From an uncultured Burkholderiales bacterium (GTDB lineage: Bacteria > Pseudomonadota > Gammaproteobacteria > Burkholderiales > Burkholderiaceae_C): a DNA stretch of 64,000 bases. The translations under genes and the position numbers were made by a program. Location: contig CAMFGY010000026.1 in NCBI GenBank assembly GCA_945952065.1, forward strand, positions 1 to 64,000, in the 5' to 3' direction. The notes beneath the pieces were generated by a model, which saw only the letters and a list, made by a program, of their open reading frames with translations, was not told the origin of the DNA and ran no database searches. How positions within the stretch are numbered: the stretch's first letter is position 1; the number at the start of each line of letters is the position of its first letter. Positions 9,627-56,983 of this stretch are shown piece by piece.

Positions 9627-9641
9627 GGGCGAACTGAGGCT

Positions 9642-10481: not shown

Positions 10482-10671
10482 GGGGTCATATTCGCATGGC
10501 AATGAGTCATTGCCAAGCGCCTTGGCTTGTGCCGCGGCAGGCAAACAAGCCTTAAGCCAATCTTGCGCAAACCTTAAGCCGCCCCGCGCCATAGTGGAGG
10601 CCTTGCCCTCCCGCGCTTGGCCACGAGTGGCGGGCGATCGATCTCTTTGTGCCCCCAGGGGCCGCTCTTGC

Positions 10672-11397: not shown

Positions 11398-11482
11398 GCC
11401 CGCGCCCGCAATCAAAGAGGGCTTGACCTTGCTGGGTCAGCAGGCATGATGAGTCACCGCGTTGCTTGACACTTTTGGGGGA

Positions 11483-27628: not shown

Positions 27629-29445
27629 GCGTTTGCCTCCTCGGCCACTTGCTGCAACAGCGCTTGAAAGGCGCGCACGCACAGCTCGGCATCGTCGTTG
27701 CTGATGGTTTCTAGGGGGTTGTGGCTGATGCCGCCGTTGCCACCGCGCACGAACAACATGGCTTGAGGCATCAGTTCATGCAGCTTCATTGCATCATGGC
27801 CCGCCCCGGAGGGCATGCGGTGCAGCGGCAGGCCCAAGCTCGCCACCGCCGCTTCCCAACGCGCTTGCCAGCGGGCATCGCTGGGGGCGGCGTTGGCGGC
27901 CAAAGTGGGGGTGAGTTGCCAGCGCAAGCCGCGGCGCTGGCAGATGCGGGCCAGCTCGGCGCGCACATCGGCGCCCAGCGCGTCGCGGGCGGTGTTGCTG
28001 CTGGCGCGCAGGTCCAGGCTGAACTGGCAGCGGCCCGGGATCACATTGATGGAGCCCTGCGGCACTTGCAACTGGCCCACCGTGCCCACGGTCACCGCGC
28101 CGTCACGATCAGGCTCGCTGGCGCGCCGCTCCACATACAGCAGCAACTCGGCCACGGCCGCGGCCGCATCCTGGCGCTGGCCCATGGGCGTGGTGCCGGC
28201 ATGGGCGGCCTGGCCGATCACCTCGCCCAAATAGCGCAGGCTGCCATTGATGGACGTGACGATGCCCAGCGGCAGGTCCAAGGCCTGCAACACCGGGCCC
28301 TGCTCGATATGCACTTCCACAAAGCCGAGGTAGCGCGCGGGGTCGCGGGCCAGCGCCTGGATGGCGGCCATCTCGCCCGGCAGGCCGGCGCGCTGCATGG
28401 CCTCGCGCATGGCCATGCCTTGTTCATCCACCTCGTCCAGCCAAGCCGGGTCGAAGTGGCCGGTCAGCGCACTGGAGCCCAAGAAGGTGGCCTTGTAGCG
28501 CTGGCCTTCTTCTTCGGCAAAGGCCACGACCTCGAGCGCAAAAGGCAGGCGTTGCCCGGCGGCGCTGAGCGCGCGCACGCAGGCCATGGGCACCAGCACG
28601 CCCAGGCGGCCGTCATACTTGCCAGCGCGGCGCACGGTGTCGTAGTGCGAGCCGGTCAGCAAGATCGGCGCATCGGGCTGGGTGCCGTGGTAGCGCCCCA
28701 CCACATTGCCCACCGCATCGAGGCTCACCTCGTCAAAGCCACAGTCTTGGCGCATCCAGGCTTGCAGTTGCGCGGCGCAGGCCTGGTGGGCCGCCGTCAG
28801 GTAGGTGACGGTCAGTTCGCCCGGTTCTTGAAAGCCAGGGTCGGAATGCTGGGCCAGGGCTTCGGCCCAGTCCCAGACCTGATTGCCCAGTTCGGGCGAG
28901 ACGCCAAACTTGTCATTCAAGCGGATCTCGGCAATGCGGTGGATCTGGCGCAGGCACTCACTCAGCTCTTGTTCCGGGCTGTCTTGCAAGCGGCGCGCAA
29001 AGGCCGCGATGATCTGGCTGCGGCTCAGCCCCAAGCCGCGCGGGCCGCGCACCGCCAGGATGAAGGGCCAGCCGAAACGTGCGCGGTAGTCCGCATTGAG
29101 CTGCTGCAGCCGCGCGAACTCTTCGGGGCTGCAGTGGGTCAGCCCGGCGCGGCTTTGCTCGTCGCTGGATTCCGTGGTCAGCGTTTGCGCCACCATGGCC
29201 TTGCCCGCCAGTTCCGGATGGGCGCGTATCAATTGCAGCTGCTGCTCGCGGCCGGCCTCGCGCACCACCTGCGCCAAGCCATGCTTGAGCTGGGCCAGGC
29301 TGTGAAAGGGCCGCGCCGCAGCGGCGCGTTCGGCGATCCAGGGGGAATGCTCATAAGTGCCATCCAGCAGCGCGGTGAACTCCGCCACCGTGGCCGTATT
29401 CAAGGCGCTCAAACTCAAGGTGCTCGCACTCATGCTCAGGCTCAT
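27625..29445 (-). CDS. Natural fusion: OHCU decarboxylase (UraD) + allantoate amidohydrolase (AllC)
   Basis: This is a 606-residue bifunctional protein. Residues 1 to about 170 are UraD, with LIRAHPELAGK (catalytic His), SSDEQSRAGL and FGWPFILAVRG. It converts OHCU to S-allantoin. Residues from about 175 on are an M20 amidohydrolase with AllC motifs TGSHYDTVRRAGKYDG, AFAEEEGQRY, HIEQGPVL and GAGHDAMKL. This half hydrolyses allantoate to ureidoglycolate and ammonia. The two steps are separated by allantoinase, which is PuuE, encoded just upstream with an ATGA overlap. Start at ATG 29445; a TTG at 29451 would add only two residues. Family members are normally separate proteins of about 165 and 410 residues. 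Confidence 0.92.
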   Translation of the reverse strand: MSLSMSASTLSLSALNTATVAEFTALLDGTYEHSPWIAERAAAARPFHSLAQLKHGLAQVVREAGREQQLQLIRAHPELAGKAMVAQTLTTESSDEQSRAGLTHCSPEEFARLQQLNADYRARFGWPFILAVRGPRGLGLSRSQIIAAFARRLQDSPEQELSECLRQIHRIAEIRLNDKFGVSPELGNQVWDWAEALAQHSDPGFQEPGELTVTYLTAAHQACAAQLQAWMRQDCGFDEVSLDAVGNVVGRYHGTQPDAPILLTGSHYDTVRRAGKYDGRLGVLVPMACVRALSAAGQRLPFALEVVAFAEEEGQRYKATFLGSSALTGHFDPAWLDEVDEQGMAMREAMQRAGLPGEMAAIQALARDPARYLGFVEVHIEQGPVLQALDLPLGIVTSINGSLRYLGEVIGQAAHAGTTPMGQRQDAAAAVAELLLYVERRASEPDRDGAVTVGTVGQLQVPQGSINVIPGRCQFSLDLRASSNTARDALGADVRAELARICQRRGLRWQLTPTLAANAAPSDARWQARWEAAVASLGLPLHRMPSGAGHDAMKLHELMPQAMLFVRGGNGGISHNPLETISNDDAELCVRAFQALLQQVAEEANA

Positions 29446-30401
29446 TCCCAAATGAAGGCGCGGCTGGCGTCAAAGGGATGAACGCTGCGCCAATGGCGCG
29501 CAATGTCCACCCGGCGGCAGATCCAGACGCGCTCGTGTTTTTCGACATGGTCTAAGAAACGCTGCAGCGCGCGCATGCGCGCCGGGCGACCCAGCAGGCG
29601 GCAGTGCATGCCCACGCTCATCATTTTGGGCGCTTCCTCGCCTTCTTTGTAGAGCACATCAAAGCTGTCGCGCAGGTATTCGAAAAACTCATCGCCGTGC
29701 GAGAAGCCTTGCGGCAGGGCAAAGCGCATGTCGTTGCAGTCCAGCGTATAGGGCACCACCAGATGCGGGCTGAGTGCGCCATCGCTTTTGCGCACTTGCA
29801 GCCAGAAGGGCAGGTCGTCGCCGTAGTAGTCGCTGTCGTACTCAAAACCGCCGTAGTCCGCCACCAGGCGGCGGGTGTGGGGGCTGTCGCGCCCGGTGTA
29901 CCAGCCCGAGGGGCGTTCACCGATCATGCGCTGCAAGACGTCCATGCCCTCGTTCATATGCTGGCGTTCGGTGGCCTCGTCCACGCCTTGATAGCTGATC
30001 CAACGCCAACCGTGGCAGGCGATCTCATGGTTCATCTGCACCAAGGCCTGGCAAAGCTCCGGGTGGCGTTGCAAGGCCATGGCCACGGCAAACACGGTGA
30101 GCGGCAGACCACGCCCTTCGAACTCGCGCAACAAGCGCCAGACCCCTGCGCGCGAGCCGTACTCGTAAATGCTTTCCATGCTCAGGTGCCGCTCGGCAAA
30201 TGCCGGGGGATTGGCCATCTCCGAGAGGAACTGCTCCGAGCCCGCATCCCCGTGCAGCACCGAGTTCTCGCCGCCTTCTTCATAGTTCAGCACAAACTGC
30301 AGCGCAATGCGGGCTTGGCCCGGCCATTGCGCATGGGGCGGGTTTTCCCCATAGCCGAACAGATCGCGCGGGTAGCGGTGAGGGGTCGGGCGGTGTCGCA
30401 T
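29442..30401 (-). CDS. puuE: Allantoinase PuuE (polysaccharide-deacetylase fold)
   Basis: This 319-residue cytosolic protein begins MRHRPTPHRYPRDLFGYGEN, typical of PuuE. Family motifs include LNYEEGGENSVLHGD, MESIYEYGSRAGVWRLLREF, NHEIACHGWRW and RPSGWYTGRDSPHTRRL. PuuE hydrolyses allantoin to allantoate without a binuclear metal amidohydrolase centre. It is the first gene of the minus-strand operon puuE - uraD/allC - M20. The start at 30401 is used because the frame upstream runs past the divergent uraH start. It shares an 85-bp divergent promoter region with uraH. Confidence 0.93.
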   Translation of the reverse strand: MRHRPTPHRYPRDLFGYGENPPHAQWPGQARIALQFVLNYEEGGENSVLHGDAGSEQFLSEMANPPAFAERHLSMESIYEYGSRAGVWRLLREFEGRGLPLTVFAVAMALQRHPELCQALVQMNHEIACHGWRWISYQGVDEATERQHMNEGMDVLQRMIGERPSGWYTGRDSPHTRRLVADYGGFEYDSDYYGDDLPFWLQVRKSDGALSPHLVVPYTLDCNDMRFALPQGFSHGDEFFEYLRDSFDVLYKEGEEAPKMMSVGMHCRLLGRPARMRALQRFLDHVEKHERVWICRRVDIARHWRSVHPFDASRAFIWE

Positions 30402-30435
30402 CGCGGGTCGGCCACAGGGGCGAGAGTTTTCTTGC

Positions 30436-30447
30436 CTACACTTTGCC
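30436..30447 (+). promoter_or_regulatory. Shared 12-mer in the uraH promoter region (CTACACTTTGCC)
   Basis: The 12-mer CTACACTTTGCC lies 39 bp before the uraH start. An identical copy lies upstream of puuD (40980-40991). TACACT could be a -10 box. Because both genes act on urate and its product, the match could be a common promoter element or binding site. Confidence 0.4.
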
Positions 30448-30486
30448 TCAATTCCTGAACAACTCCGACTCGAAAGCGAGCATTCC

Positions 30487-30882
30487 ATGAGCACAGCAGC
30501 AAGCGCCGGTTCGGCCAGCGCACAAGGTTGGCTCAGCACCCATGTGCTGGACACCATGCGGGGCCAGCCTGCCGCCGGCATGACCGTGCGCCTGTATCGG
30601 CTGGAAGCCGGGGGTCAGGTCTTGCTCATCAAGGGCTTGGTGCTGAACGCCGATGGCCGCGCTGATGCGCCCTTGCTGGCGGGCGAGGCGTTTTTGCCCG
30701 GCCGCTACCGGCTGGTGTTTGCCGTGGCCGAATACTTCCGTCAACAAGCCGGAGTGACTTTGCCCGAGCCGGCCTTTTTGGACGAGGTGCCGCTGGACTT
30801 TGGCATTGCCGATGCGGCTGCGCATTACCACGTGCCGCTGCTGACCAGCCCCTGGAGCTACTCGACCTACCGTGGCAGTTGA
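30487..30882 (+). CDS. uraH: 5-hydroxyisourate hydrolase (transthyretin-like)
   Basis: This 131-residue protein has the N-terminal LSTHVLDTMRGQPAAGM motif (catalytic His) and the C-terminal signature YSTYRGS of transthyretin-like HIU hydrolases. It turns 5-hydroxyisourate, the product of PuuD, into OHCU, the substrate of UraD. There is no signal peptide, so it acts in the cytoplasm. Its 3' end overlaps the GTG start of xdhC by 11 bp, so the two are co-translated. It is divergent from puuE. Confidence 0.95.
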   Translation: MSTAASAGSASAQGWLSTHVLDTMRGQPAAGMTVRLYRLEAGGQVLLIKGLVLNADGRADAPLLAGEAFLPGRYRLVFAVAEYFRQQAGVTLPEPAFLDEVPLDFGIADAAAHYHVPLLTSPWSYSTYRGS

Positions 30883-31795
30883 TCGGCGCGTGGGCGCAGT
30901 GGCCAGCAGCCACGGCAGTTTTTGGCAGGGGCACAGCGATCTGGCACGGCTGCAGGCGGCCTTGCCGAGCCAGTGCTATGTGTTGGTGACGGTGGTGCAG
31001 ACCCAGGGCAGCGTGCCGCGCGGCCCGGGCACCTGGATGGCGGTTGGCGCGGTGCATGCGCCGCTGCCGCTGATTGGCACCATCGGCGGCGGTCAGCTGG
31101 AGTTCGAGGCCATGGCCCAGGCCCGCCAACTGCTTGCTGCTGAGGATTGGCCCCAGCCACTGCTGACCGAGCATGCCTTGGGCCCCAGCCTCGGTCAATG
31201 CTGCGGTGGCGCTGTGGCTTTGCGTTATGAAAAACTGCGGCCCGAAGACGGCCTCGGCTTGGCCGCTCGCTTGCAAGCCGCAGAGCCGCCGGCCATGCCC
31301 GTGGCCTTGTTTGGCGGCGGCCATGTGGGCCTGGCGCTGGCACGGGTCTTGGCGCGCTTGCCGATGCGGCTGCACTGGATCGACAGTCGCGACGAAGTCT
31401 TCCCCAGCGAGCTGCCCGCGTCCATCCAGGCCGAGCATTCCGATCCCGTCGAGGCGGCGGTGCGTGATCTGTGCCCGGACTCGCGGGTCTTGATCATGAG
31501 CTTCAGCCATGCGGAAGACCTGGCCATCGTGCGCGCTTGCTTGGAGCGGCGCCGTGAGCGCGACGACCTGCCTTTCATCGGCCTGATCGGCAGCAAGAGC
31601 AAATGGGCCCGCTTTCGCGCCCGGCTGCGTGAGCGTGGCTTCAGCGAGCCCGAGTTGGACGGCGTGTGCTGCCCCATTGGCTTGCCCGGCATTGCCGGCA
31701 AGCAGCCGGAGGTGATTGCCGTGGCCGTGGCGGCGCAATTGCTGCTGCATGCCGCACCCCCCGGGAATGGGGGTGAGCGCGCCCGGAGTCTGTAG
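30872..31795 (+). CDS. xdhC: Xanthine dehydrogenase accessory protein XdhC
   Basis: This 307-residue protein has the XdhC motifs VTVVQTQGSVPRGPGTWM, TIGGGQLEFEAM and LGQCCGGAVAL in the N-terminal half. A Rossmann-type C-terminal half has VALFGGGHVGLALARVL and GLIGSKSKWARFRARL. XdhC binds molybdenum cofactor, helps exchange oxygen for sulfur and inserts it into XdhB. It starts with GTG at 30872 inside the end of uraH. The XdhAB structural genes are 21 kb away, which is an unusual separation. Confidence 0.93.
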   Translation: MAVDRRVGAVASSHGSFWQGHSDLARLQAALPSQCYVLVTVVQTQGSVPRGPGTWMAVGAVHAPLPLIGTIGGGQLEFEAMAQARQLLAAEDWPQPLLTEHALGPSLGQCCGGAVALRYEKLRPEDGLGLAARLQAAEPPAMPVALFGGGHVGLALARVLARLPMRLHWIDSRDEVFPSELPASIQAEHSDPVEAAVRDLCPDSRVLIMSFSHAEDLAIVRACLERRRERDDLPFIGLIGSKSKWARFRARLRERGFSEPELDGVCCPIGLPGIAGKQPEVIAVAVAAQLLLHAAPPGNGGERARSL

Positions 31796-31869: not shown

Positions 31870-33108
31870 ATGCAGCCTAAATTCGTACTTTCTTCCCTCG
31901 CCGCCGCTCTGGTGCTGGCGGCCGCCCCGGCCATGGCCTGGAACACGCTGGACGGCAATGCGCCGTTGGTGATCGCGCACCGTGGCGCCTCCGGCTATAT
32001 GCCCGAGCACACCATCGAGGGCTACACCAAGGCCATCGAGCTGGGCGCCAACTACATCGAGCCCGATCTGGTCATGACCAAGGACGGCGTGCTGGTGGCG
32101 CGCCACGAGCCGGTGATTGGTGACTCCACCAATGTGCGTCAGCTGGCCCAGTTCGCCAATCGCATGACCACCAAGACCATCGACGGCGTGACCTACAAAG
32201 ACCAGTTCTTTGTTGAAGACTTCACCCTGGCCGAACTGAAGACCCTGGGTGCGATGCAGACCCGCGCCGGCCGCCCGACCACTTATGACGGCCAGTTCAA
32301 GGTGCCCACGCTGGACGAAGTGATCGCCCTGGCCAAGGCCAAGAGCATCGAGACCGGCCGCACCATCGGCATCTATCCCGAGCTCAAGCATTCCACCTAT
32401 ATGCAAGGCGTGTCGCTGGCCCAGGGTCGCGCCAAGACCTATTTCGAAGACAAGCTGGTGTCCACCCTGCATGCTGCCTACGGCAATGTGGCGAATGCGC
32501 CGGTGTTCATCCAGAGCTTTGAAGTCTCGAACCTGCAATACCTGAACACCAAGACCGACATCAAGCTGGTGCAGCTGGTGGATGCCGATGACGTCAATGC
32601 CGACGGTTCCATGTCCCTGGTGGCGCCTTATGACAAGCCCTTCGACGTGGCGAACCGCGGCGGCAAGCTGACTTTTGCTGACCTGGTGAGCTCGGTCGGT
32701 TTGTCCTTTGTGGCCACCTATGCCGACGGCATTGGCCCCTGGAAGCCCTATCTGCTGAAGACCGTGGCCGACGGCGTGGACCGTGACGGCGACGGCAAGC
32801 TGACCGGCAAAGACCGCCGCGTTGACGGCTCCACCGGCGTGATCGAAAACGCCCACGCCAATGGCTTGTTCGTGCACACCTGGACCTTCCGCAACGATGC
32901 CTCGATGCTGGGCTTTGCCGATCCGCAAAAGGAAATGGAAGCCTATTTGAAGATGGGCGTGGACGGCATCTTCACCGACTTCACCGACACCGGCGTTGCT
33001 GCCGTGAACGCGGTGGCGGCCTCGGCCGTGCCCGAGCCCGAAAGCTACGCCCTGCTGTTGGCCGGCCTGGGTGGCCTGGCGATGCTGCGCCGTCGCAAGC
33101 AGGCCTGA
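31870..33108 (+). CDS. Exported glycerophosphodiester phosphodiesterase with PEP-CTERM anchor
   Basis: This 412-residue protein has a signal peptide (cleavage near AMA-WN) and a GDPD domain. The active-site motif is IAHRGASGYMPEHTIEGYTK, with metal ligands in ANYIEPDLVMTKDGVLVARH. It cuts glycerophosphodiesters to glycerol-3-phosphate and alcohol, releasing carbon and phosphate from phospholipid head groups. The last 25 residues are a PEP-CTERM sorting signal: AVPEPES, a hydrophobic helix and RRRKQA. That predicts processing by an exosortase and surface or matrix placement, which is unusual for this enzyme. A clear terminator follows. Confidence 0.92.
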   Translation: MQPKFVLSSLAAALVLAAAPAMAWNTLDGNAPLVIAHRGASGYMPEHTIEGYTKAIELGANYIEPDLVMTKDGVLVARHEPVIGDSTNVRQLAQFANRMTTKTIDGVTYKDQFFVEDFTLAELKTLGAMQTRAGRPTTYDGQFKVPTLDEVIALAKAKSIETGRTIGIYPELKHSTYMQGVSLAQGRAKTYFEDKLVSTLHAAYGNVANAPVFIQSFEVSNLQYLNTKTDIKLVQLVDADDVNADGSMSLVAPYDKPFDVANRGGKLTFADLVSSVGLSFVATYADGIGPWKPYLLKTVADGVDRDGDGKLTGKDRRVDGSTGVIENAHANGLFVHTWTFRNDASMLGFADPQKEMEAYLKMGVDGIFTDFTDTGVAAVNAVAASAVPEPESYALLLAGLGGLAMLRRRKQA

Positions 33109-33971: not shown

Positions 33972-34946
33972 ATGGCAAGCAAAGTCAGCGCCGCCAGTCC
34001 GGCCAAACCCGCAGCCAAGGCTGCGGCTCCCAAAGCGGCCTCCACAGCGGCCACCAAGCTCAGCAAGGCCAAGGCGCTGTCGCTGCACATCGGCTTGAAT
34101 GCAGTCAACCCGGCTGCTTATGGCGGCTGGGACGGCCCGCTTGCCGCTTGCGAGTTCGACGCGCAAGACATGGCGGCCTTGGCCAAATCGCAAGGCATGA
34201 AGCCCACCGTCTTGCTCACCAAAAAAGGCACGCGAGCGGCCACCCTGGCGGCGCTGCGCAGCGCCGCCAAGCAATTGAAGGCGGGCGACTTGTTCTTCAT
34301 GAGCTACTCCGGTCATGGGGGACAAGTGGGCGATGTGAATGGCGACGAGGCCGACCGCAAGGACGAAACCCTGTGTCTGTACGACGGCCAGCTGATCGAC
34401 GACGAGTTGTATTTCGAGCTCAGCAAATTTGCCGCCGGGGTGCGGATTCTGGTCTTGTCGGACAGCTGCCACAGCGGCACCGTCACGCGCGACTTCCCGC
34501 CGCCACCACCGCCCCCGGGCCAGCGCGCCCGCTTGATGCCGGCCGAAGTGGCGCGGCGCGTGTACCAAAGCCATCAAAAGTTCTATGACGATTTGCAGCG
34601 CAAGGTCTTGGCCGAGGCCGGCAAAACGACGGTGGACCCCGATGCCGCCCTGGCCTTGCTGGGCCCGGCCGCGCAGGCCACGGCCCTGGTGGGCGCCTTC
34701 AAGCCCTCGGTGATTCTGATCTCGGGCTGCCAAGACAACCAAACCTCCATGGACGGCGAACACAACGGCGCCTTCACCGGTCAGTTGCTGAAGATCTGGA
34801 ACGGCGGTGCCTTCAGTGGCAGCTACAGCAGCTTCCACGCCCGCATCCGCGCCGGTATGCCGCCCACCCAGTCGCCCAATCTGTTCACCTTGGGGGCCGG
34901 GGCCGAGCTGGCCGCCTTCTTGAAGCAAAAGCCCTTCACGGTCTGA
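33972..34946 (+). CDS. Caspase-family (C14, metacaspase-like) cysteine protease
   Basis: This 324-residue protein has a lysine/alanine/proline-rich N-terminus (about 1-33), then a caspase-like p20 domain. The catalytic histidine is H115 in MSYSGHGGQ and the nucleophile is C166 in [21 protein letters not shown] begins the fold. Acidic residues between the dyad and in [10 protein letters not shown] may bind calcium, as in metacaspases. A Pro-rich linker ([10 protein letters not shown]) follows the Cys and could be a processing loop. There is no signal peptide or transmembrane segment. Start at ATG 33972 with AGGAG about 10 nt upstream. The gene is followed after 39 bp by the giant CHAT gene and probably shares its transcript. 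Confidence 0.9.
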
Positions 34947-34985
34947 GCCGCATTTGCAACACCGGCTGCGCTTGGGAGCCCTTTG

Positions 34986-37900
34986 ATGCCTGACAAACAC
35001 ATCACCCTCCAGCTGAACGGGCGGCCCGCGGATCGCTTGCAGCTGCCGGCTTTGCTGAGCTCGGCGGCCCGTGCCGCTGGATTCAGCGAAGAGCAGTTTT
35101 TGCCGCCCGGCTATTTGCAGCCGCTGAGCGTGTTTGATTTGAGTCCGGCGGCCCGCAGTGGGACCGGCGAGGCCTTGGATCAGCGCCACAGGGCCGCGCC
35201 CGACGAGGTGCTGGTGCTGGAGCTGGCCGATGGCAGCAGCTTGATCACCAGCGCGGCGCGTTTGCAGGCCAGTTTGCAGCGCGCCCACCCGGAGCTGCTA
35301 GGCGCTGACGGTGAAGTCTTGCTGGAAGCCTTGCGCGCGCAAGGAGCGGCGCCCGGGCGCGGCTTGGGCGAGGCCTTGGGCGGGCTGATCAGCAAGGTCT
35401 TCAGCCTTGCAGTAGGCGCAGCGCCGGATGCCATCATCGACGCGGCTTGCAGCCAGCTGAAGAACAAGGCCGAGTTGGGTGTCAGCTGGGCCGGCACCAA
35501 GGCCTTGATGTGGGCGATTGAGAAGCAGCTCTCGCAAGCGCCGGGCCTGTACCGCTGGGTCTCGGCCAGCGGCAAGCCGCAAGACCTGGAGCCCTGTGAC
35601 TTTGCGGCCCACCCGCCCACGGGGCCCCTGCTGGTGTTTGTGCATGGCACCGGCTCCAGCACGCTGGGCAGCTTTGGCGAGTTGCGCAGCGGCGACCGCG
35701 AACTCTGGAGCGCGCTGCAGGCCCGCTTCAGCGGAGGCATCTACGGTTTCGAGCATCGCACGCTCTCGCAAAGCCCGATAGAGAACGCCATCGACCTGCT
35801 GCGCGCTTTGCCCGTGGGCGCGCAGATTTGTTTGGTCTCGCATTCGCGCGGCGGCTTGGTGGCGGATTTGCTGTGTCTGGATGATTTTGACGCTTTGATT
35901 GAGCGTTATGCCTACAGCTTCGAGGGCACGGGCGATGCCGACCCCGAGGAGGCGAGCCGCGTCATCCAAGAGCTGGAGACCGCCCACGCTGAGCAGCGTG
36001 AGCAATTGCGCTGTTTGGCCGCCTTGCTGCGCGAACGCCGCATCAGCGTGCAGCGCTATGTGCGCGCCGCATCCCCGGCCAGCGGCACCAAGCTGGCCAG
36101 TGGCAATTTCGATGTGTTTCTGTCGGGCATCTTGAACTTGATCGGGGCCGTGCCCTTTTTCTTCGGCAGCCCTTGGTATGCGGCCTTCAAGCGAGTGGTA
36201 CTCGAGATTGCCAAACATCGAACCAATGCCCATTTGGTGCCCGGCATCGAGGCCATGCTGCCCGATTCACCGATGGCCCGCCTGCTGCGCGATGCGCCAG
36301 TGCGCCCGGCGCTGAGCATGGCGGTGATTGCGGGCGATATCCAGGGTGGCCCGCTGCTGCGCCGACTCGGCGTGATGCTCACCGACTTTTTGCTCTTCGA
36401 CAACGATGACAACGACTTGGTGGTCAACACCACTGCGATGCTGGCCGGCATTGCGCCCAAGGCGGCGGCCCGGGTCTTGTTTGACCGCGGCGCCGATGTT
36501 TCGCATTTCCGCTACTTCCTCAATGCTGACAGCCGGGCCGCTTTGCGCGATTGGTTGGTGGCAGAGCGGCCGCTGAGCTTGAGCAGCTTTCGGCCCTTGC
36601 CCGAGCCGGCCGAATACGAGGCCGCACTCGCCGCGGCAGGGGCCAGCCGCGCGCTGGGTGCGGCGGAGCGGCCAGTGGTGGTGGTCTTGCCCGGCATCAT
36701 GGGCTCGCATTTGCGCGTCGGCGCGAAAGACCGGGTCTGGTTTGACCCGGGCGATATCGCCACCGGCGGGCTGGCTAAGATTGCATGGGCGCAAGCCACG
36801 GTGGAGGCCGACGAGCTGTTCGCCATGTTTTATGGCCGCGTCTGCGAACACCTGGCCGCCAGCCACCGGGTCGAACCTTTTCCTTATGACTGGCGCCAGC
36901 CGCTCGACGTTTTGGCCGAGCGCCTGGGGGCGTTTCTTGAACGCTTGATGCAGAAGACCCAGCAGCCGATTCGCCTGCTGGCGCACAGCATGGGCGGCCT
37001 GGTGGTGCGAGCCTGCATTCACAAGCGCCGTGCGGTGATGGACCAGTTGATGGCCCGTGAGGGCGCGCGCTTGATCATGCTGGGCACGCCGCATCAGGGC
37101 GCCCATTCCATGGTGGAGAACCTGATCGGCAAGGGCTCGACCCTGCGCACCCTGGTGCGCTTGGACCTGAGCCACGATATGCAGCAGGTGCTGGACATCA
37201 TTGCGGAGTTCCGCGGGGCTTTGCAGCTGCTGCCCAAGCCGGGCTTTCAAGACCAGTTTCAAGGCCAGCCCGGTGGCGGCGCGAACTACGCTTACCAGCA
37301 TGCGCCGACTTGGCGGGCGTTGAAAGAAAAGGTCAGTGATTTTTGGTTCGGGGACCGGCGCGCTGGCACGCCCTCGCAAGCGGTGCTGGACGCCGCGAGC
37401 TGGCTGTGGGCCCAGGACGGCCCGGGCTCGCCGGCCCTGCCTTCGGCCTATGCGAGCCGAAGCATTTACATCTTTGGGCAAGCCCCCAACACGCCCTGCG
37501 GTCTGCGCGAGGAGGGCGGGCGCTTGAAGATGGTCGGCACGGCCCAAGGCGACGGCACGGTGACCTGGGCCTCGGGTCGCATCGGCGGCATCGGTAGTCA
37601 GTACTACATGCCGGCGGCCCATGGCGATTTGTTGTCCACCAGCGCGTACTTCCCGGCCCTCACCGAGTTGCTGAACTCGGGGGCCAGCGCGGGGCTGAGC
37701 GCGCAGCCCCCAAGCAGCCGCGCCATCGAGCAGGCCCAGCCCCTGGTCTACGACGCCGGCCCTCCCAATGCCGACGACCCCGATGCCTTGTTGCGCGGCC
37801 TGATGGGCAGCTCGCCGCGCAACCGGGTGCCGCCGCGCACGCAGCGCAGGCTGGCGGTGTCGGTGCACGCCATGGACTTGCGCTTCGTCAGCGACCCCAT

Positions 37901-40900
37901 TCTGGTGGGGCATTACGAGCGCGACCCCATTGCCGGCGCCGAAGCCTTGGTCGACCGCGAGCTGTTGAACCGCGCGCTGAGCGAGCGTTACAGCCTCGGC
38001 CTGTATGCCGGTGCGCGCGGCAGCGCCACCGTGGTGCTGCGGGTGCGTGGCGACTTCGAGCGCAAGATGGGCGCCCTGAGCGGGGCCGTGGTCACCGGAC
38101 TGGGGTCTTATGACCGCGCCCTGAGTCCGGCCGACCTGACGGAGGCGGTGCGCACCGGCGCTTTGCGCTATTTGCTGCAAGTGATCGATGTGCTGGGCAA
38201 GGCCGAGCGCGAGGTGCCGCTGGCGAGCTTGTTGATTGGCTATAACTCCTCGGCCAATCTGACCGTGGCGGCCTCGGTCGAGGCCTTGGTGCGCGGCGTG
38301 ATGGAGGCGAATGCGCGCTTTTATGCGGTCACCCGCTTGAACATCCGCATCGCACGGCTGCACATCGTCGAGCTCTATCTGGACACCGCCATCAGCGCCA
38401 CCTATGCCCTGCGTGCCCTGAGTGGGCCTCTGGCCGCGCAGGCCGAGAAACAGGGCACGGCCCTGATTTGCCACAACGAGCTGCAGCAAGGCGAGGGCAT
38501 GCGGCAGCGCCTCTTTGACGATGGCAATTCCAGCTATTGGCCGCGGCTCATCATCACCGACGCTGAGCGCGGCGAAGGGGCCGGCAGCGCTGCGGCGGCT
38601 GCAGCGGGCGCGGCGCCGCTGGCCGAGAAGCTGCGCTTTGTGTTCGTGGGCCAGCGTGCGCGGGCCGAGTCGGTGGGCTTGCAACGCCAGCCCGGTTTGA
38701 TCGAGCAAATGGTGGCGCAGCAGATCGGCAACCCCATCTGGAACGAAGACTTTGGCCGCATGTTGTTCCAGCTGATGGTGCCGCATGACTTCAAAGACGC
38801 GGCGCGCCAGCTCGACCGGGTGGTGTTGGTGGTGGATGCCTACAGCGCCAACCTGCCCTGGGAGTTGATGCTGGCCGATGATCCCGACCAGCCCAGCGAT
38901 GACAAGCAGCCCCTGGCCTTGCGCACGGCGGTGGTGCGCCAACTGGCGGCCCAGACCTTTCGGGCCTCGGTGCATCAAAGCGTGCTGCGCCAGGCCTTGG
39001 TGATCGCCAACCCTTCGGTGGCGGGCTTTGCCAAAGGCTTCCCGGTGCTGCAGGGGCAAGCCAGCCAAGACCCGCCGGATCTGCCCGGCGCGCAGGCCGA
39101 GGGGGAGGCCTGTCAAGAGCTGTTGAGCAAGCTGGGCTATCAGGTCGAGGCGCTGATGGGCCCCGCGGCCAAGGCCAGCGATGTCTTGGCCAAGCTCTAC
39201 GCCAAGCCCTGGCGCATCTTGCACATCTCGGCGCATGGCGTGTTTGATCTGCCGCATGCCGACGGGCGGCGCCGCAGCGGCGTGCTCTTGTCCGATGGCT
39301 TGCTGATCACCGCCGCTGAGATCATGGCCATGGAGACCGTGCCCGAGCTGGTGTTTTTGAACTGCTGCCATCTCGGCCAGGTGGACGTTGGCACGCAAGG
39401 CCCGGGCAGCAACAAGCTGGCCGCCAGCGTGGCGCGCGAGTTGATCGCCATCGGGGTGCGCTGCGTGGTGGTGGCGGGCTGGGCGGTCAATGATGAGTCG
39501 GCCCGGCTCTTTGGTGAAACCTTCTATGCCCAACTCTTGCTGCGACGCCAGAGCTTTGGCGATGCGGTGTTCAGCGCCCGGCAAGCGGTGTGGAAGTCTT
39601 ATCCGCAAGACATCACCTGGGGCGCTTTTCAAGCCTATGGCGACCCGATTTGGTTGGCAGAGCCGGCGGCGGAGCCCGGTGCCGCCAGCGATATGGGCGG
39701 GCGTTTTGTGTCGCCGGATGAGATGCTGGATGAACTGGCACGGCTGCGCTCGGAGCTCGCACGCCGCGGCGATGAGCTTGACTCAACCGCCCTGCAAGCG
39801 CAGGTCGACCGGGTGGCCGAGGCGCTGGCGCGGCGCTGCCCGGCGGGCTGGCAGCAATACCCGCAGCTGCAATACGCCCTGGGCAAAACCTGGTTCGATC
39901 TGGGGCAGTGGGAACGTGCGCGCGCCGCTTTGCTGAGCGCCGCGCAGGCGGTGGACCGCATCGGGGGCGTGCCCATCGCCGATATTGAAAAGCTGGTCGA
40001 TGTGGAGTCGCGCTGGGGCGAGGCGCGGGCCTTGGCGGCCTTGGACGCCGCCCTGGCTGGCGAGCCGCAGGCGCACCAAGCGCTGCAGGCGGGTGAGGCC
40101 ATGATCGAACTGGCCCTGCGCCGTTTGGATGGGCTGGATGCCTTGGTGCTGGATGGCGAGGCGGCGGCCGAGTCGGCCACGCCCAAGCCCCAGGCCGCGG
40201 TGCACAGTGAACGCACCGCCCTGCGCGGCGCGGCGTGGCAGCGCAAAGCCCATTTGCAGGCGCGACGTTTGCTGAGTGGCGCTTTGGGGCAGGAGGCCCA
40301 AGACCAGGCCGCCCAAGCCTTGTCGATGTGTTTGCAAGCCAGCGTGGCCGCCTACCGCGCTGGGGAGGGGCAGCCCGGCTCCGAGGCTTTCAGCCCCAGC
40401 CACGCTTTGCTGCGTTTAGCGTTGGACGCGCTGACCGACTGGCCCAGCCCGGCGGACAAAGACGCGGCCCTTGCGCTGGCGCAGCAATGCCGCCAGGCCG
40501 CCCTGCAGAACTTGGCCCAGCAGCCCAGCCCCGCCGACTTGCTGATCGCGCCGGAGGCGCTGCTGGTCGAGTATCTGATCAGCGGGCAGTTGGGCCGGGC
40601 CGACGAAGCCGGGCAGCGCTGCTTTGACTCGGTGCGGGTCGCCTATGCCGAAGCGCTGGGCTGCGTGACGCTGCGGCCCCAGCAATTGCGGGCTCTGGTG
40701 GAGCGGCTGGAGGGGCTGTCGCGCTTTGTCGATGCCCTGGCCAGGGTCCAATATGCGGACGCTGCGTTGAACCGCACAGCCGAACGCTTGATCGCGCTGG
40801 CCCAGAGCTTGATGCCCGGCCGTGCGGCCCGCAGCGACCGGCCCGCCACGCCGCTGCCGCCGGCCTCGGCCCCGGCCCGAGCCCCATCGGCGCCGACCAA

Positions 40901-40928
40901 GAAAGGGCGCAAAGCTGCCAAGCGTTGA
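34986..40928 (+). CDS. Giant CHAT protease fused to two lipase-like alpha/beta-hydrolase domains
   Basis: This is a 1980-residue cytosolic protein. Residues about 215-520 form an alpha/beta-hydrolase with H220-GTGS, nucleophile S287 in SHSRGG, and a likely D477 and H507. Residues about 565-900 are LCAT/lipase-like: PGIMGSH, YDWRQPL, S668 in AHSMGG, LGTPHQG, D856 in GDGTV and H879 in AHGDL. Residues about 950-1200 are a mixed domain I do not recognise. Residues about 1215-1560 are a CHAT caspase-like domain with PWELM, H1417 in ISAHG and C1461 in NCCHLG. The C-terminal 400 residues are helical and TPR-like, ending in a basic Pro/Ala tail. All three centres keep their key residues. It lies 39 bp behind the caspase-like gene. 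Function is unknown; it is probably a protease-regulated lipase effector. Confidence 0.85.
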   Translation: MPDKHITLQLNGRPADRLQLPALLSSAARAAGFSEEQFLPPGYLQPLSVFDLSPAARSGTGEALDQRHRAAPDEVLVLELADGSSLITSAARLQASLQRAHPELLGADGEVLLEALRAQGAAPGRGLGEALGGLISKVFSLAVGAAPDAIIDAACSQLKNKAELGVSWAGTKALMWAIEKQLSQAPGLYRWVSASGKPQDLEPCDFAAHPPTGPLLVFVHGTGSSTLGSFGELRSGDRELWSALQARFSGGIYGFEHRTLSQSPIENAIDLLRALPVGAQICLVSHSRGGLVADLLCLDDFDALIERYAYSFEGTGDADPEEASRVIQELETAHAEQREQLRCLAALLRERRISVQRYVRAASPASGTKLASGNFDVFLSGILNLIGAVPFFFGSPWYAAFKRVVLEIAKHRTNAHLVPGIEAMLPDSPMARLLRDAPVRPALSMAVIAGDIQGGPLLRRLGVMLTDFLLFDNDDNDLVVNTTAMLAGIAPKAAARVLFDRGADVSHFRYFLNADSRAALRDWLVAERPLSLSSFRPLPEPAEYEAALAAAGASRALGAAERPVVVVLPGIMGSHLRVGAKDRVWFDPGDIATGGLAKIAWAQATVEADELFAMFYGRVCEHLAASHRVEPFPYDWRQPLDVLAERLGAFLERLMQKTQQPIRLLAHSMGGLVVRACIHKRRAVMDQLMAREGARLIMLGTPHQGAHSMVENLIGKGSTLRTLVRLDLSHDMQQVLDIIAEFRGALQLLPKPGFQDQFQGQPGGGANYAYQHAPTWRALKEKVSDFWFGDRRAGTPSQAVLDAASWLWAQDGPGSPALPSAYASRSIYIFGQAPNTPCGLREEGGRLKMVGTAQGDGTVTWASGRIGGIGSQYYMPAAHGDLLSTSAYFPALTELLNSGASAGLSAQPPSSRAIEQAQPLVYDAGPPNADDPDALLRGLMGSSPRNRVPPRTQRRLAVSVHAMDLRFVSDPILVGHYERDPIAGAEALVDRELLNRALSERYSLGLYAGARGSATVVLRVRGDFERKMGALSGAVVTGLGSYDRALSPADLTEAVRTGALRYLLQVIDVLGKAEREVPLASLLIGYNSSANLTVAASVEALVRGVMEANARFYAVTRLNIRIARLHIVELYLDTAISATYALRALSGPLAAQAEKQGTALICHNELQQGEGMRQRLFDDGNSSYWPRLIITDAERGEGAGSAAAAAAGAAPLAEKLRFVFVGQRARAESVGLQRQPGLIEQMVAQQIGNPIWNEDFGRMLFQLMVPHDFKDAARQLDRVVLVVDAYSANLPWELMLADDPDQPSDDKQPLALRTAVVRQLAAQTFRASVHQSVLRQALVIANPSVAGFAKGFPVLQGQASQDPPDLPGAQAEGEACQELLSKLGYQVEALMGPAAKASDVLAKLYAKPWRILHISAHGVFDLPHADGRRRSGVLLSDGLLITAAEIMAMETVPELVFLNCCHLGQVDVGTQGPGSNKLAASVARELIAIGVRCVVVAGWAVNDESARLFGETFYAQLLLRRQSFGDAVFSARQAVWKSYPQDITWGAFQAYGDPIWLAEPAAEPGAASDMGGRFVSPDEMLDELARLRSELARRGDELDSTALQAQVDRVAEALARRCPAGWQQYPQLQYALGKTWFDLGQWERARAALLSAAQAVDRIGGVPIADIEKLVDVESRWGEARALAALDAALAGEPQAHQALQAGEAMIELALRRLDGLDALVLDGEAAAESATPKPQAAVHSERTALRGAAWQRKAHLQARRLLSGALGQEAQDQAAQALSMCLQASVAAYRAGEGQPGSEAFSPSHALLRLALDALTDWPSPADKDAALALAQQCRQAALQNLAQQPSPADLLIAPEALLVEYLISGQLGRADEAGQRCFDSVRVAYAEALGCVTLRPQQLRALVERLEGLSRFVDALARVQYADAALNRTAERLIALAQSLMPGRAARSDRPATPLPPASAPARAPSAPTKKGRKAAKR

Positions 40929-41082: not shown

Positions 41083-42294
41083 ATGAACATCAGCGCCTAT
41101 CTGCTTGATTGGGCCGGCCTGTTGCTGCGCTGGCTGCATGTGATTGTGGGCATCGCCTGGATCGGTGCCTCGTTTTACTTTGTCTGGTTGGACAACCATT
41201 TGCGCAAGCCCAGCGCTGAAGATCTGCGCGCCAAGGGCGTGGACGGCGAGTTGTGGGCCGTGCATGGCGGCGGCTTTTACAACCCGCAAAAGTACCTGGT
41301 GGCGCCGCCGAATCTGCCCGAGCATCTGCACTGGTTTTACTGGGAAAGCTACTGGACCTGGATCAGCGGCTTTGCGCTTTTTGTGACCCTGTATCTGGTC
41401 AATGCCGAGAGCTATTTGATCGATCGGCGCCTGCTGGACTGGAGCGTGCCGGCGGCCATCAGCGCGGCGCTGGGCTTTTTGGTGGTGGGCTGGGGGGTGT
41501 ATGACCAGATCTGCCGCCGCCTGGGCCACACCGCCGATGGCAGCATCGGCCATGACGGCCGGGTGTTGGGCCTGATCGGCCTCTTCATCGCCGCCGCCAC
41601 CTGGCTGGCCTGCCAGCTGTTTGCCGGCCGGGCCGCGTTTTTGCTGATCGGCGCCATGATGGCCACCATGATGAGCGCCAATGTGCTGTTTTGGATCATC
41701 CCGGGCCAGAAGCAGGTGATCGCCGATATGCGCGCCGGTCGGCCGGTGAACCCTGTGTTTGGCCAGCGTGGCAAGCAGCGCAGCGTGCACAACACCTACT
41801 TCACCCTGCCGGTGCTGGTGGCCATGCTCAGCAACCATTACGGCATGCTTTACAGCCATGCGCAGAACTGGCTGCTGCTGATCGTTTTGATGACGGTGGG
41901 CGTGCTGGTGCGCAGCTATTTCGTGAAGCGCCACAAAGGCGTCAACGCCTGGGGCTTGGTGCTGGCGGCGCTGGTCTTGCTGGCGGCTTTGATTGTGGGT
42001 CTCGCACCCCGAGCCCCGGCTCCCGCCGCAGGGCCAAGCGCCCCGGCCGTTCCCACCATGGCCGAGGTGCAGGCGGTGGTGAACCAGCGCTGCGTGCTCT
42101 GCCACAACGCCGAGTTGGCACAAAAAGGCCTGCAACTGCACAGCGCCGAGCTGATCGAGAAAAACGCACAAGCGCTCTATCAGCAAGCGGTGCTGCAAAA
42201 AACCATGCCGCTGAACAATGCCACTGGCATCAGCGAGGAGGAACGCCAACTCCTGGGGCGTTGGTTTCAGGGGCGCGGGCGCGCCTTGCCCTGA
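41083..42294 (+). CDS. puuD: Membrane urate hydroxylase PuuD with cytochrome c domain
   Basis: This 403-residue protein has about eight membrane helices in the first roughly 310 residues (LLLRWLHVIVGIAWIGASFY, HWFYWESYWTWISGFALFV). A Pro/Ala linker leads to a C-terminal cytochrome c domain with the haem site CVLCH and an axial Met in TMPLNNATGIS. PuuD oxidises urate to 5-hydroxyisourate and passes electrons to the respiratory chain instead of making peroxide. It fits exactly before UraH. The caspase-CHAT genes and two others separate it from uraH-xdhC, so the pathway cluster is interrupted. Confidence 0.95.
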   Translation: MNISAYLLDWAGLLLRWLHVIVGIAWIGASFYFVWLDNHLRKPSAEDLRAKGVDGELWAVHGGGFYNPQKYLVAPPNLPEHLHWFYWESYWTWISGFALFVTLYLVNAESYLIDRRLLDWSVPAAISAALGFLVVGWGVYDQICRRLGHTADGSIGHDGRVLGLIGLFIAAATWLACQLFAGRAAFLLIGAMMATMMSANVLFWIIPGQKQVIADMRAGRPVNPVFGQRGKQRSVHNTYFTLPVLVAMLSNHYGMLYSHAQNWLLLIVLMTVGVLVRSYFVKRHKGVNAWGLVLAALVLLAALIVGLAPRAPAPAAGPSAPAVPTMAEVQAVVNQRCVLCHNAELAQKGLQLHSAELIEKNAQALYQQAVLQKTMPLNNATGISEEERQLLGRWFQGRGRALP

Positions 42295-42460: not shown

Positions 42461-43225
42461 ATGACGCTCTTCTCTTGCAAATGGGCCCTGCGATTGCAGG
42501 CCCTGCTGGCTGCCAGCACGCTAGGCTTGTTGACCCCGCCAGCCCAGGCTCAAGCGGCCTGGAGTTCGCTGACGCTCAGCTTTGTGCAGCCGACCGGAAC
42601 GGTGGGCCCGACCGATGCCATCCCGGTGGTTCTGCGCCTGGAGAACAAGGACGCGAGCCTGCCCTTTGTGGTGGACAACAGCTTGCCCTTTGGCGGCTTG
42701 AATCCGGCGGACTTGCCCTCGCAGGCCTATGCCGGCCTGGACCCGGACGGCAACCCTCTTTATCTTCCATTCGCCAGCTACACCGGCTTCAATCTGGGCA
42801 TGGGCTTTGGTTGCAGTGGCAGCTTCAACGCGCCCGGCCAGTGCACCCAGGGCCCGCCCTATACCTTCACGTTCGCCAACAACCCCTTTGAACTGCCCTA
42901 TCGATTGAACGCGGGGGCGCAGCACGAGTATTTGTTCGGCACCTTCACGCCCAGCGCCGGCCCGGTTGCGCCTGGGGACTACTACTTCTATCGCAGCGTG
43001 CTGTGGCTGGATGTTCAGGGGCTGAGTGCAGACGGCACGGTGTTGAATGCAGTGGCATTCCCGGCTACCACTTGCAATGGCAATAGCCTGGACGAGTGCG
43101 CGGGCCAGAGCTATTTCACCCGCACGGTGTCGGCCGTGCCCGAGGTCCAGACCTGGTACTTGCTTTCGCTCGGCTTGGCAGGCTTGGCGTTCTGGTCAAA
43201 CCGGCGCCGGGCGGGGGCGGTGTAA
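42461..43225 (+). CDS. Exported PEP-CTERM-like protein, function unknown
   Basis: This 254-residue protein has a signal peptide (cleavage near AQA-AW) and a beta-rich body with many Pro, Phe and Tyr residues. There are four cysteines after the signal peptide (GFGCSGSFNAPGQC, TTCNGNSLDEC) that could form disulfides. The C-terminus has the three-part sorting signal SAVPEVQTW, a hydrophobic helix and NRRRAG. The usual Pro-Glu-Pro is Pro-Glu-Val here. It is likely a surface or matrix protein sorted by an exosortase. It has no catalytic motif and no clear tie to purine use. Confidence 0.75.
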   Translation: MTLFSCKWALRLQALLAASTLGLLTPPAQAQAAWSSLTLSFVQPTGTVGPTDAIPVVLRLENKDASLPFVVDNSLPFGGLNPADLPSQAYAGLDPDGNPLYLPFASYTGFNLGMGFGCSGSFNAPGQCTQGPPYTFTFANNPFELPYRLNAGAQHEYLFGTFTPSAGPVAPGDYYFYRSVLWLDVQGLSADGTVLNAVAFPATTCNGNSLDECAGQSYFTRTVSAVPEVQTWYLLSLGLAGLAFWSNRRRAGAV

Positions 43226-53025: not shown

Positions 53026-55355
53026 TCAGGGCATGCCTGGGCCCTGCAGGGCTTGCAGCGCGCGCATGACGGCCTCGGCCGTGGCGGGCGCGCGCAGATC
53101 GGGGTCGCAGCCGGGCGGGCCGCAGGCCGCGATGGCATCTTTGATCGCCAACAGCACCGAGATCGGCAGCAGCAAGGGCGGCTCCCCCACGGCCTTGGAG
53201 CGGTGGATGCTGTCGGCGGCGTTCGGCTGGTCGAACAAGGCCACCCGGAAGTCCGGCGGGCTGTCGTTCGCGGTGGGGATTTTGTAGGTGCTGGGCGCGT
53301 GGGTGAGCAGGGCGCCGCTGCTGGGGTGCCAGACCAGCTCTTCCATCGTCAACCAGCCCATGCCCTGTACAAACGCGCCCTCGATCTGGCCGATGTCCAG
53401 CGCCGGGTTCAGCGAGCGGCCCACATCGTGCAAGACATCGGCGCGCAGCACGCGGCTTTCGCCGGTGAGGGTGTCGACCAAGACTTCAGACACGGCCGCC
53501 CCATAGGCGAAGTAGTAAAAAGGCTTGCCTTGCAGCTGGCTGCGGTCCCAGTGCAGGCCGGGCGTGGCGTAAAAGCCCTCGCTCCAGAGCTGCACCCGCT
53601 GCAGATAAGCTTTGTGCACCAGCTCGGCAAAAGGCATGGCCTGCTCGCCAGCGCTGACCCGGTCGTTGGCAAAGCTGATCTCCTCCGCCGAGCATTGCCA
53701 CAGCTTCGCGGCCAGGGCTGCAAGCCGGCTCTTGATGCGGGCGGCGGCGTCTTGTGCGGCCTTGCCGTTCAGGTCGCTGCCGGTGGAGGCCGCGGTGGCC
53801 GAGGTGTTGGCGATTTTTTGGGTGTCGGTGGCGCTGCAGCGCACCCGCGCCAGGCTCAGGCCCAGCTCATGCGCCACCACCTGCGCCACCTTGGTGTTCA
53901 GGCCCTGGCCCATTTCGGTGCCGCCATGGTTCACCAGCACCGAGCCATCGGTGTAGACATGCACCAAGGCGCCGGCCTGGTTCAGGTGCACCACATTGAA
54001 GCTGATTCCAAATTTCAGCGGCGTCAGCGCCAGGCCTTTTTTCAGCACCGGGCTGCGGGCGTTGAAGTCGGCGGCGGCTTGGCGGCGCTGGGCATAGTCG
54101 CTGCTGGCCAACAGGCGCTCGATCAGCGGGGCCAGGATGTTGTCTTCGACCTGTTGGCCGTAGGGCGTGAGCTTGCGGCCGCCGGCATCGGCGTACAGAT
54201 TGTTCAGCCGCACTTGCAGCGGGTCGATCTGCAGGCGGCGCGCCACCGCGTCCAGAATCATCTCGATGGCCAGCGCGCCTTGCGGCCCGCCAAAGCCGCG
54301 AAAGGCGGTGTTGCTCTGGGTGTGGGTGCGCGCGCAAAAACCGTGCAGGGCCACATGGGGCAGGAAGTAGGCGTTGTCGAAGTGGCAGAGCGCCCGCGCC
54401 ATCACCGGCGCCGACAAATCGGCCGAATGCCCGCAGTTGGAAATCAACTCCACCTCGGCGCCGAGGATGCGCCCCTGCGCGTCAAAGCCCACCTCCCAGC
54501 GGTAGTCAAAGCCGTGGCGGCGGCCGGTGATCATGAAGTCGTCATCGCGGTCCAAGCGCAGCTTGACCGGGCGGCCCAGCTGGTTGGCAGCAATGGCGGC
54601 CACGCAGGCAAACAGCGCCGACTGCGACTCCTTGCCGCCAAAGCCGCCGCCCATGCGACGGCATTGCACCTGCACCTGATGCGAGGCCCAGCCCAGCGCA
54701 TGGGCCAGCAGCTGCTGCATCTCGCTGGGGTGTTGGGTGGAGCAGTGCACCAAGAGCCCCTGCTGCTCTTGCGGGATGGCGTAGCTGATCTGCCCTTCCA
54801 GATAGAACTGCTCCTGCCCGCCCACCGACCACTCGCCGCTCAGCCGCATGGGCGCTGCCGCCAGCGCCGCCGCTGCGTCGCCCCGGCTCAAATGCATGGG
54901 CGGCAGCACATAGTGGCCCTGGGCATGGGCTTCTTTGGCCGTCAGCACCGCGGGCAGGGCTTCGATGCGCAGGGCCGTTTTGGCCAGGGCAGCGGCGCGG
55001 CGCGCCAGCTCGCGGCTGCGAGCGATCACCGCGAAGACCGGCTGGCCCAGATAACTCAAAGTCTCGGCGGCAAGAATCGGGTCGTCATGTACCAAGGGGC
55101 CGCAGTTGTTCTCGCCCGGGATGTCGGCCGCCGTCAGCACCGCCACCACGCCCGGCTGGGCGCGCAGCAGGGCCAGATCGGTGGACAGCAAGCGCCCATG
55201 CGCCACCGGTGACAGGCCCAGGGCCGCATGCAGCGTGCCTTGCAGCTCGGGGATGTCGTCGGTGTAGCTTGCTTCGCCGCTGACGTGCAGTGCAGCCGAC
55301 TCATGCGGCGGGCTGTGGCCGACGCGCGCGCCCGTGCTTGGGATGTGGGGGGCCT

Positions 55356-55359
<4 letters not shown>
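53026..55359 (-). CDS. xdhB: Xanthine dehydrogenase, molybdenum-binding subunit XdhB
   Basis: This 777-residue protein has the motifs of the Mo-binding subunit. YTDDIPELQGTLHAALGLSP begins the first domain. RMGGGFGGKESQ, THTQSNTAFRGFGGPQGALA and GGTEMGQGLNTKVAQV surround the cofactor. Near the end VGEPPLLLPISVL carries the catalytic glutamate. It oxidises hypoxanthine to xanthine and xanthine to urate. It starts at 55359, overlapping the xdhA stop by ATGA. XdhC, needed for cofactor sulfuration, is encoded 21 kb away. Confidence 0.95.
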
Positions 55360-56909
<1,550 letters not shown>

Positions 56910-56983
56910 CGAAACGGAACTCACCAAGCTGCTGGGCCCCTGACGATATACGATCCTGCCCCAGCTCTTTTGAAAACACTGCC

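Follow-up and report, generated by a model that had tools for sequence, protein, structure and literature searches.

A caspase-like protease gene paired with the gene of a giant CHAT protein carrying two hydrolase domains, a candidate protease-gated lipase module in a Burkholderiales bacterium

Proteases of the CHAT and caspase types are found in several described bacterial systems. Craspase, the TPR-CHAT protein of type III-E CRISPR, joins a CHAT protease to helical repeats and is switched on by a sensed signal. TPR-S, a domain of other conflict systems, was reportedly predicted by Burroughs and Aravind in 2020 to read NAD+-derived signals. In the Canu loci (KaeCanABC), phage defense comes from a pro-nuclease that is activated by a caspase; proteases of several families serve as partners of related nucleases, and TPR domains occur (PMC12799240). 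Caspase-bearing VMAP proteins are described by Kaur et al. (2020) as always having an alpha/beta-hydrolase gene neighbor with which they act together (PMC7159879). Here we consider a locus on contig CAMFGY010000026.1 (assembly GCA_945952065.1) of an uncultured Burkholderiales bacterium, within the 64,000-nucleotide stretch that was analyzed (positions 1 to 64,000, hereafter the window). A gene for a caspase-like protease lies directly upstream of a gene for a 1980-residue protein (hereafter the giant) with two hydrolase domains and a CHAT protease domain. We put at roughly 55% the probability that the two genes form a protease-gated lipase module under signal control, serving defense by cell death, with the caspase as an exchangeable activator.

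The giant resembles Craspase in joining a CHAT protease to helical repeats and differs from it in that its tail, in most of the family, is related to TPR-S and its lipases share the polypeptide; the TPR-S domain of most family members is in turn the likeness to the TPR-S conflict systems. The Canu loci are like the module in the window in that a caspase gene is paired with a downstream gated hydrolytic effector, and by analogy they offer a tested precedent for caspase activation of such an effector. The Canu effector is an MBL-fold nuclease (PMC12799240), whereas two serine hydrolases and CHAT are found here, and the giant's Pfam matches include no nuclease or Ig-like family. The VMAP/MoxR-vWA ternary systems likewise combine a caspase with an alpha/beta-hydrolase, of the same or another family. 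Those systems have three conserved core genes (VMAP, MoxR, and vWA), in contrast to the two-gene unit considered here (PMC7159879). Their conserved order was not found in the 79 loci described below, where the caspase is the sole neighbor with a fixed place across genera, nor in the window, where neighbors were judged by reading rather than by family scan; one relative (genome G567) has a MoxR-like AAA gene, matched below threshold, between caspase and giant. With TIR-to-caspase Thoeris, the shared feature is caspase immunity tied to TIR signaling (reportedly, Rousset et al. 2025), and TIR genes stand beside the pair's relatives at L126, where the TIR is ThsB-like, and in G092 and G567. The effector considered here differs in carrying its own lipases and CHAT, and no TIR/ThsB gene adjoins it in the window (local TIR model, 52 called genes).

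The initial annotation had placed a caspase-like protease 39 base pairs (bp) ahead of the giant, and the gene coordinates (Table 1) and a Pfam match to Peptidase_C14 (PF00656, E value 6.8e-22, 78.7 bits against a cut-off of 21.4) bear this out; both genes lie on the same strand. We assign the caspase to family C14 on this profile match together with its His/Cys dyad. When its profile was compared with solved structures, the best match was 3bij (GSU0716; E value 5.7e-101), followed by metacaspases. Because of this metacaspase kinship and the presence of acidic residues, the pocket of the caspase is expected to favor Arg or Lys. The protein scores 28.3 bits against NCBIfam NF047832 (EACC1-associated caspases), below the cut-off of 140. 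Its N terminus is an Ala/Lys-rich tail (window positions 33972-34070).

The giant was said to combine a CHAT center with two lipase-like centers, and this description is confirmed by Pfam and by the conservation of the catalytic residues. The first hydrolase matches DUF7379 from residue 216 (E value 3.4e-31), and the 200 residues at the N terminus have no assigned domain. The second has an LCAT/PGAP1-type match at residues ~629-720 (LCAT at residues 629-714; E value 1.9e-7, 31.1 bits against a cut-off of 21), and among solved structures its profile picks out a putative lipase (4e-7) followed by group XV phospholipase A2 (6.7e-6); the profile and the complete putative triad place it in the LCAT/phospholipase-like family. 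CHAT scores 115.4 bits against a cut-off of 24, and with both H1417 and C1461 present in 71 of 71 giants, its membership of the CHAT family is clear. The same 71 sequences (those of at least 1650 residues, namely the window's and 70 from the 79 loci, a few of which are shortened by contig ends) retain S287 in 69, D477 in 71, and H507 in 71 for the first hydrolase, and S668 in 69, D856 in 71, and H879 in 71 for the second, the triad roles being assigned from motif and order rather than from structure. The conservation of these residues is far beyond chance. Free variation of the catalytic residues among homologs would have spoken against the initial annotation, and no such drift was seen in the giants or in the caspase dyad, which was counted in 43 sequences (the window's caspase and 42 partner caspases). 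The most hydrophobic stretch of the giant, residues 375-395 (window positions 36108-36170), falls within the region of hydrolase 1, where it might form a lid that contacts the membrane.

Table 1. Positions in the window of the two genes and of their domains and catalytic residues
Feature	Positions	Strand	Remarks
Caspase-like (metacaspase-type) protease, 324 residues	33972..34946	+	Pfam PF00656; profile against solved structures
Caspase catalytic His115	34314..34316	+	present in 43/43
Caspase catalytic Cys166, in DSCHSG with Asp164	34467..34469	+	C166 and D164 in 43/43
Giant protein, 1980 residues, with two hydrolase domains followed by an M17_N/macro-like domain, CHAT, and a C-terminal region	34986..40928	+	
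Alpha/beta-hydrolase 1 (DUF7379), residues ~212-525, putative triad S287/D477/H507	35619..36560	+	boundaries by eye
Alpha/beta-hydrolase 2 (LCAT/phospholipase A2 XV-like), residues ~562-905, putative triad S668/D856/H879	36669..37700	+	boundaries by eye
Basic linker, residues 942-961, predicted cleavage site	37809..37868	+	
Middle domain, M17_N/macro-like, within residues 945-1155	37818..38450	+	profile-profile comparison
CHAT protease domain, residues 1256-1553, H1417 and C1461	38751..39644	+	Pfam 4.3e-33
C-terminal helical region	39651..40925	+	TPR-S match in 50/67 giants, none in the window copy alone

The caspase and the giant are a recurrent pair. A scan of named genomes, from which the best 80 of 578 relatives of the giant were taken, gave 79 loci in Pseudomonadota, Cyanobacteriota, Nitrospirota, Thermodesulfobacteriota, and Bacteroidota, and the pairing rate therefore applies to the window's closer relatives. 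In 43 of 67 loci, a caspase gene on the same strand directly precedes the giant; the remaining 12 of the 79 have no called upstream gene because the giant begins at a contig end. The gaps between the two genes run from 3 to 159 bp (median 59 bp), and the paired loci include Burkholderiales, Rhodocyclales, Pseudomonas, Cyanobium, Nitrospira, and a Desulfobacterales genome. The 43 include L084, whose caspase is truncated by a contig end, and leave out L120 and L119, with caspases at -2 (behind a TIR gene) and +2, as well as L085, miscalled in a frame-broken assembly and scored as a miss. The next commonest neighbor families reach at most 11 of the 79 loci, at varying places; other neighbors with a fixed place occur only within one genus, namely puuD (7 loci, the window's kin) and a gene for a 910-residue protein (5 Zoogloea loci).

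Co-occurrence at the genome level leads to the same conclusion. In an even sample of 150 genomes from the host family (141 genera), 15 carry a window-type caspase (E value 1e-60), 24 a giant, and 14 both, so that the giant is present in 14 of 15 genomes with the caspase versus 10 of 135 without it (p 1.5e-12, kinship ignored); one counted carrier, G464, has a half-length giant comprising the CHAT half only. Among the ten giants without a window-type caspase, three have the other caspase type in the flank and seven have none within ~1.5 kb, one of these at a contig edge. The co-occurrence expected by the initial annotation thus holds in the family sample as well as in the loci. Within the host genus (18 genomes), 14 genomes have an orthologous caspase together with a giant and four have neither at that strength, the giant occurring in 14/14 genomes with the caspase versus 0/4 without (Fisher p 3.3e-4); the four scored as lacking both do have weaker caspase matches (E values 1e-12 to 1e-15; G013, G016, and G017) and short hydrolase matches, and the split was set after the scores had been seen. 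The two genes are adjacent in 10 of these genomes. In G004, G007, G009, and G015, the caspase was found without an adjoining giant, and a distant giant (31-35%) is present elsewhere in the genome; because the contig of G004 ends 12 bases past the caspase, an adjoining giant is possible there. Four of the 79 loci (L069, L073, L074, and L082) are named Paucibacter, probably the host genus. Further out, presence is patchy, with a giant in 5 of 396 other genomes of a phylum sample (E value 1e-100) and a caspase in the upstream 1.5 kb of two of those five, one of which (G092) has a gene between.

The identity of the partner has changed over time. The caspase tree separates two families with 100/100 support. 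One is the window type, to which plasmid relatives also belong; members of the other, the second type, are 31-39% identical to the window caspase. In the giant tree, eight of the nine giants with a window-type caspase form one group nested within the second-type giants through several starred branches, and the ninth (L075) stands apart. This tree, a quick LG+G4 reconstruction that is rough by its own warnings, requires at least two changes of caspase partner type. Judged from these two trees, the giant lineage retained a caspase ahead of it through a change of caspase family, and we read the pattern as selection for having a caspase partner.

Two regions of the giant suggest where an activating cut and a signal might act. 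The linker at residues 942-961 has a mean lysine/arginine fraction of 0.291 compared with a mean of 0.112 across the 71 giants, making it the most lysine/arginine-rich 20-residue window in the family among windows filled in nearly all rows, and in 65 of 71 giants the 20 residues ahead of the middle domain hold more lysine and arginine than expected. This linker is the predicted site of caspase cleavage. It coincides with the junction at which half-length relatives begin. In G464, a window-type caspase gene overlaps by 4 bp a gene for a 711-residue CHAT protein whose alignment to the giant starts at residue 960. On a Rhizobium plasmid, the gene for a 936-residue CHAT/TPR-S protein, aligned from residue 950, has an nSTAND1-TIR-WD40 gene on either side, with short hypothetical genes intervening. 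Cleavage by a metacaspase-type enzyme at the linker could part the lipase half from the sensor-protease half.

The middle domain matches the N-terminal domains of M17 aminopeptidases in profile-profile comparison (hhalign probability 80-85; controls, reversed or unrelated, scored below 1), and we take this M17_N family to share the macro fold. Taken singly, 2 of 59 members match PF02789 and the window copy does not, whereas a related protein from a Rhizobium exceeds the cut-off (29.8 bits against 23.4); a search of solved structures with the middle and CHAT half gave weak matches (E value 0.23 or worse). At the C terminus, Pfam TPR-S (PF20308), which Pfam calls a sensor, is matched in 50 of 67 giants at E values up to 0.1 (best 1.1e-14). 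The whole-family C-terminal profile matches free-standing TPR-S with probability 93 (reversed controls 0.1), compared with 4.2 for the profile of the window-type subset. TIR is fused at the C terminus in three giants (L136 and L140 by Pfam, L146 by the local model). These domain matches suggest that a sensor is probably built into the giant, in its TPR-S tail, its M17_N/macro-like middle domain, or a fused TIR. The initial annotation noted no sensor of the STAND, cyclase, or Cas type next to the pair; in our correction, a sensor is probably present within the giant rather than missing. The giant itself ends in a Lys/Arg-rich tail (window positions 40860-40925).

Other relatives show the parts of the giant in simpler combinations, such as a DUF7379+CHAT protein adjoining an AAA/SIR2 gene and an LCAT+M17_N+CHAT protein near SIR2-pYEATS and endonuclease genes. 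The giant could have arisen by the stacking of two older units of these two kinds, each of which is still found on its own. On a Qingshengfaniella plasmid, an LCAT-like lipase is fused to a trypsin-like protease (L233, positions 5839-8361, plus strand), possibly a one-protein protease-lipase unit.

We predict that in the resting cell the giant would be held inactive. A trigger signal, most likely an NAD+-derived nucleotide from a TIR-type enzyme, would be read by the macro-like domain, the TPR-S tail, or both, and would turn on the CHAT protease. The partner caspase would cut the basic linker and free the N-terminal two-hydrolase half, which would then attack the membrane lipids of its own cell, while CHAT might cut elsewhere or start a cascade. 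We infer the signal, the order of events, the cleavage, the substrate, cell death, and phage as the trigger. On a more tentative view, which we consider possible but doubtful, the module would be a bacterial enzymatic counterpart of pyroptosis, in which signal domains, a protease, and two lipases share one protein, an exchangeable caspase cuts the hinge, and enzymes take the place of a pore. The components and their logic are known already; this assembly looks new, no description of the giant's architecture having been found among the matches listed in the literature searched. If the proposal is right, a caspase-controlled lipase executioner would join bacterial immunity beside gasdermins and caspase-activated nucleases, with the executioner retained as its controlling protease is exchanged. 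Two genes and named residues would then allow a direct test of whether proteases gate membrane killing, and TPR-S and the M17_N/macro-like domain would gain a concrete effector assayable for candidate nucleotide signals.

The neighbors of the giant's relatives are in part of conflict-system kinds. At L126, a TIR gene (ThsB model, E value 2.2e-48) directly follows the pair; at L120, the order is caspase, TIR, giant; and at L141, an nSTAND1 gene follows a giant without a caspase at -1. In G092, the series runs kinase, caspase, amidase, giant, and a TIR gene overlapping the giant. In G567, seven genes run in series: the caspase, one whose product weakly matches nucleosidase/deoxyribosyltransferase families, an unassigned gene, one for a TIR protein, the AAA gene with the sub-threshold MoxR match, a second unassigned gene, and the giant. 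A giant on an Azotobacter plasmid lies beside restriction-type genes and a recombinase, with no caspase annotated nearby. Local models place a TIR gene at 13 of 398 neighbors in positions 1-3, 6 of 331 in positions 4-6, and 2 of 295 in positions 7-12, and a free TPR-S gene at 10 of 398, 2 of 331, and 1 of 295, respectively. The near-versus-far enrichment (p 0.03 for each and 8.8e-4 combined, with the middle band left out) is weak support because the models were partly seeded with near neighbors. The initial annotation also asked whether the locus is found in defense islands. TIR or free TPR-S genes occur within the flanks of 20 of 79 loci; that defense islands are the usual setting is not supported, the neighbors having been read without a systematic scan for defense genes.

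Several observations weigh against a signal-controlled defense module. The 20 loci with a TIR or TPR-S gene are a minority, counted with local models partly seeded with the very neighbors counted, and among the 52 called genes of the window these models find neither a TIR nor a free TPR-S gene. TPR-S was also undetected in the window giant itself, both by Pfam and in the C-terminus scan. No PADLOC model matches the giant, and the PADLOC "caspase" model matches the small protein weakly (2.2e-9). No caspase lies immediately upstream in 24 of 67 loci, including L120, where it is one gene further; in G009, G501, G533, and G545, both genes are present and unlinked; and the co-occurrence statistics do not account for kinship. 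A segment in the first hydrolase region (residues 338-357) is nearly as basic as the linker, at 0.281, and basic linkers as such prove no cleavage. The surroundings of the locus in the window are metabolic.

This last point leads to the alternatives. The same machine could be a cell-death or membrane-remodeling module triggered by stress or starvation, with no part in phage defense. This explanation, which we judge unlikely, would account for the place of the module inside purine catabolism in the genus members examined, for the many neighbors elsewhere that read by eye as housekeeping genes, and for the absence of any match to the giant in the phage collection. The patchy presence of the giant and its plasmid copies (36 plasmid records match, none over 80% of its length) fit conflict systems better, as do neighboring TIR, nSTAND1, and, beside shorter homologs, SIR2 genes. 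A direct role in purine catabolism, as a regulator or lipid-turnover enzyme of the pathway, is suggested by the position between xdhC and puuD in the host genus. We rejected this candidate, and regard it as scarcely credible, because the cluster occurs without the pair in G013, G016, and G017 and because puuD follows the giant in 7 of 79 loci only, all of them the window's kin.

Could the caspase and the giant instead be independent enzymes on a shared promoter, with the caspase acting on other proteins? The four Paucibacter genomes in which no adjoining giant was detected and the window-type caspases found on plasmids with other neighbors speak for such independence. All four of those genomes nevertheless carry a distant giant elsewhere, the two genes co-occur strongly in the host family, and caspases of another family also precede giants of the same lineage, all of which make independence quite improbable. 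Very improbable, in our estimate, is a giant that acts as a secreted or injected lipase effector with the caspase as its processing protease. Lipase-like domains would suit that role, and an astacin-like gene near one homolog could be read the same way, but no secretion genes were noticed when the recurrent neighbor clusters listed were read by eye rather than scanned by family, both proteins have their most hydrophobic segments inside the chain instead of at the N terminus, and sensor-type domains such as these are typical of intracellular proteins. Our preferred explanation remains a protease-gated lipase module of two genes that serves defense by cell death.

The initial annotation had also suggested that the module was inserted into a metabolic cluster, and comparison within the host genus supports this. 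In G013, G016, and G017, hiuH is directly followed by puuD with no module between, and the pair is thus optional at this one place of the purine-degradation cluster. In the window, pieces of the cluster lie at 29442-31795, 41083-42294, and 53026-58294; their labels, assigned by reading, are allantoinase-type deacetylase, hiuH, xdhC, urate hydroxylase puuD, xanthine dehydrogenase, and guanine deaminase. Two proteins flanking the module (31870-33108 and 42461-43225) have PEP-CTERM-like tails, and one of them reads like a glycerophosphodiester phosphodiesterase.

With regard to the gene calls, a reading of the caspase from 33864 (360 residues) is possible, and the MASK start of the 324-residue form is shared, begun at or run through, in 7 of 11 aligned orthologs; for the giant, the open reading frame list contains a TTG start one codon earlier. 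The gene between caspase and giant in G092 is an Amidase_2 (L191, positions 9414-10355, minus strand), and the module there might thereby gain an effector that cuts the cell wall. A gene between an AAA gene and a giant at L232 (positions 9122-12868, plus strand) encodes a 1248-residue protein without a Pfam match. Elsewhere in the host genome, on another contig, a 687-residue open frame contains one TPR-S domain (G000:C45:19448-19828, minus strand; E value 6.3e-15).

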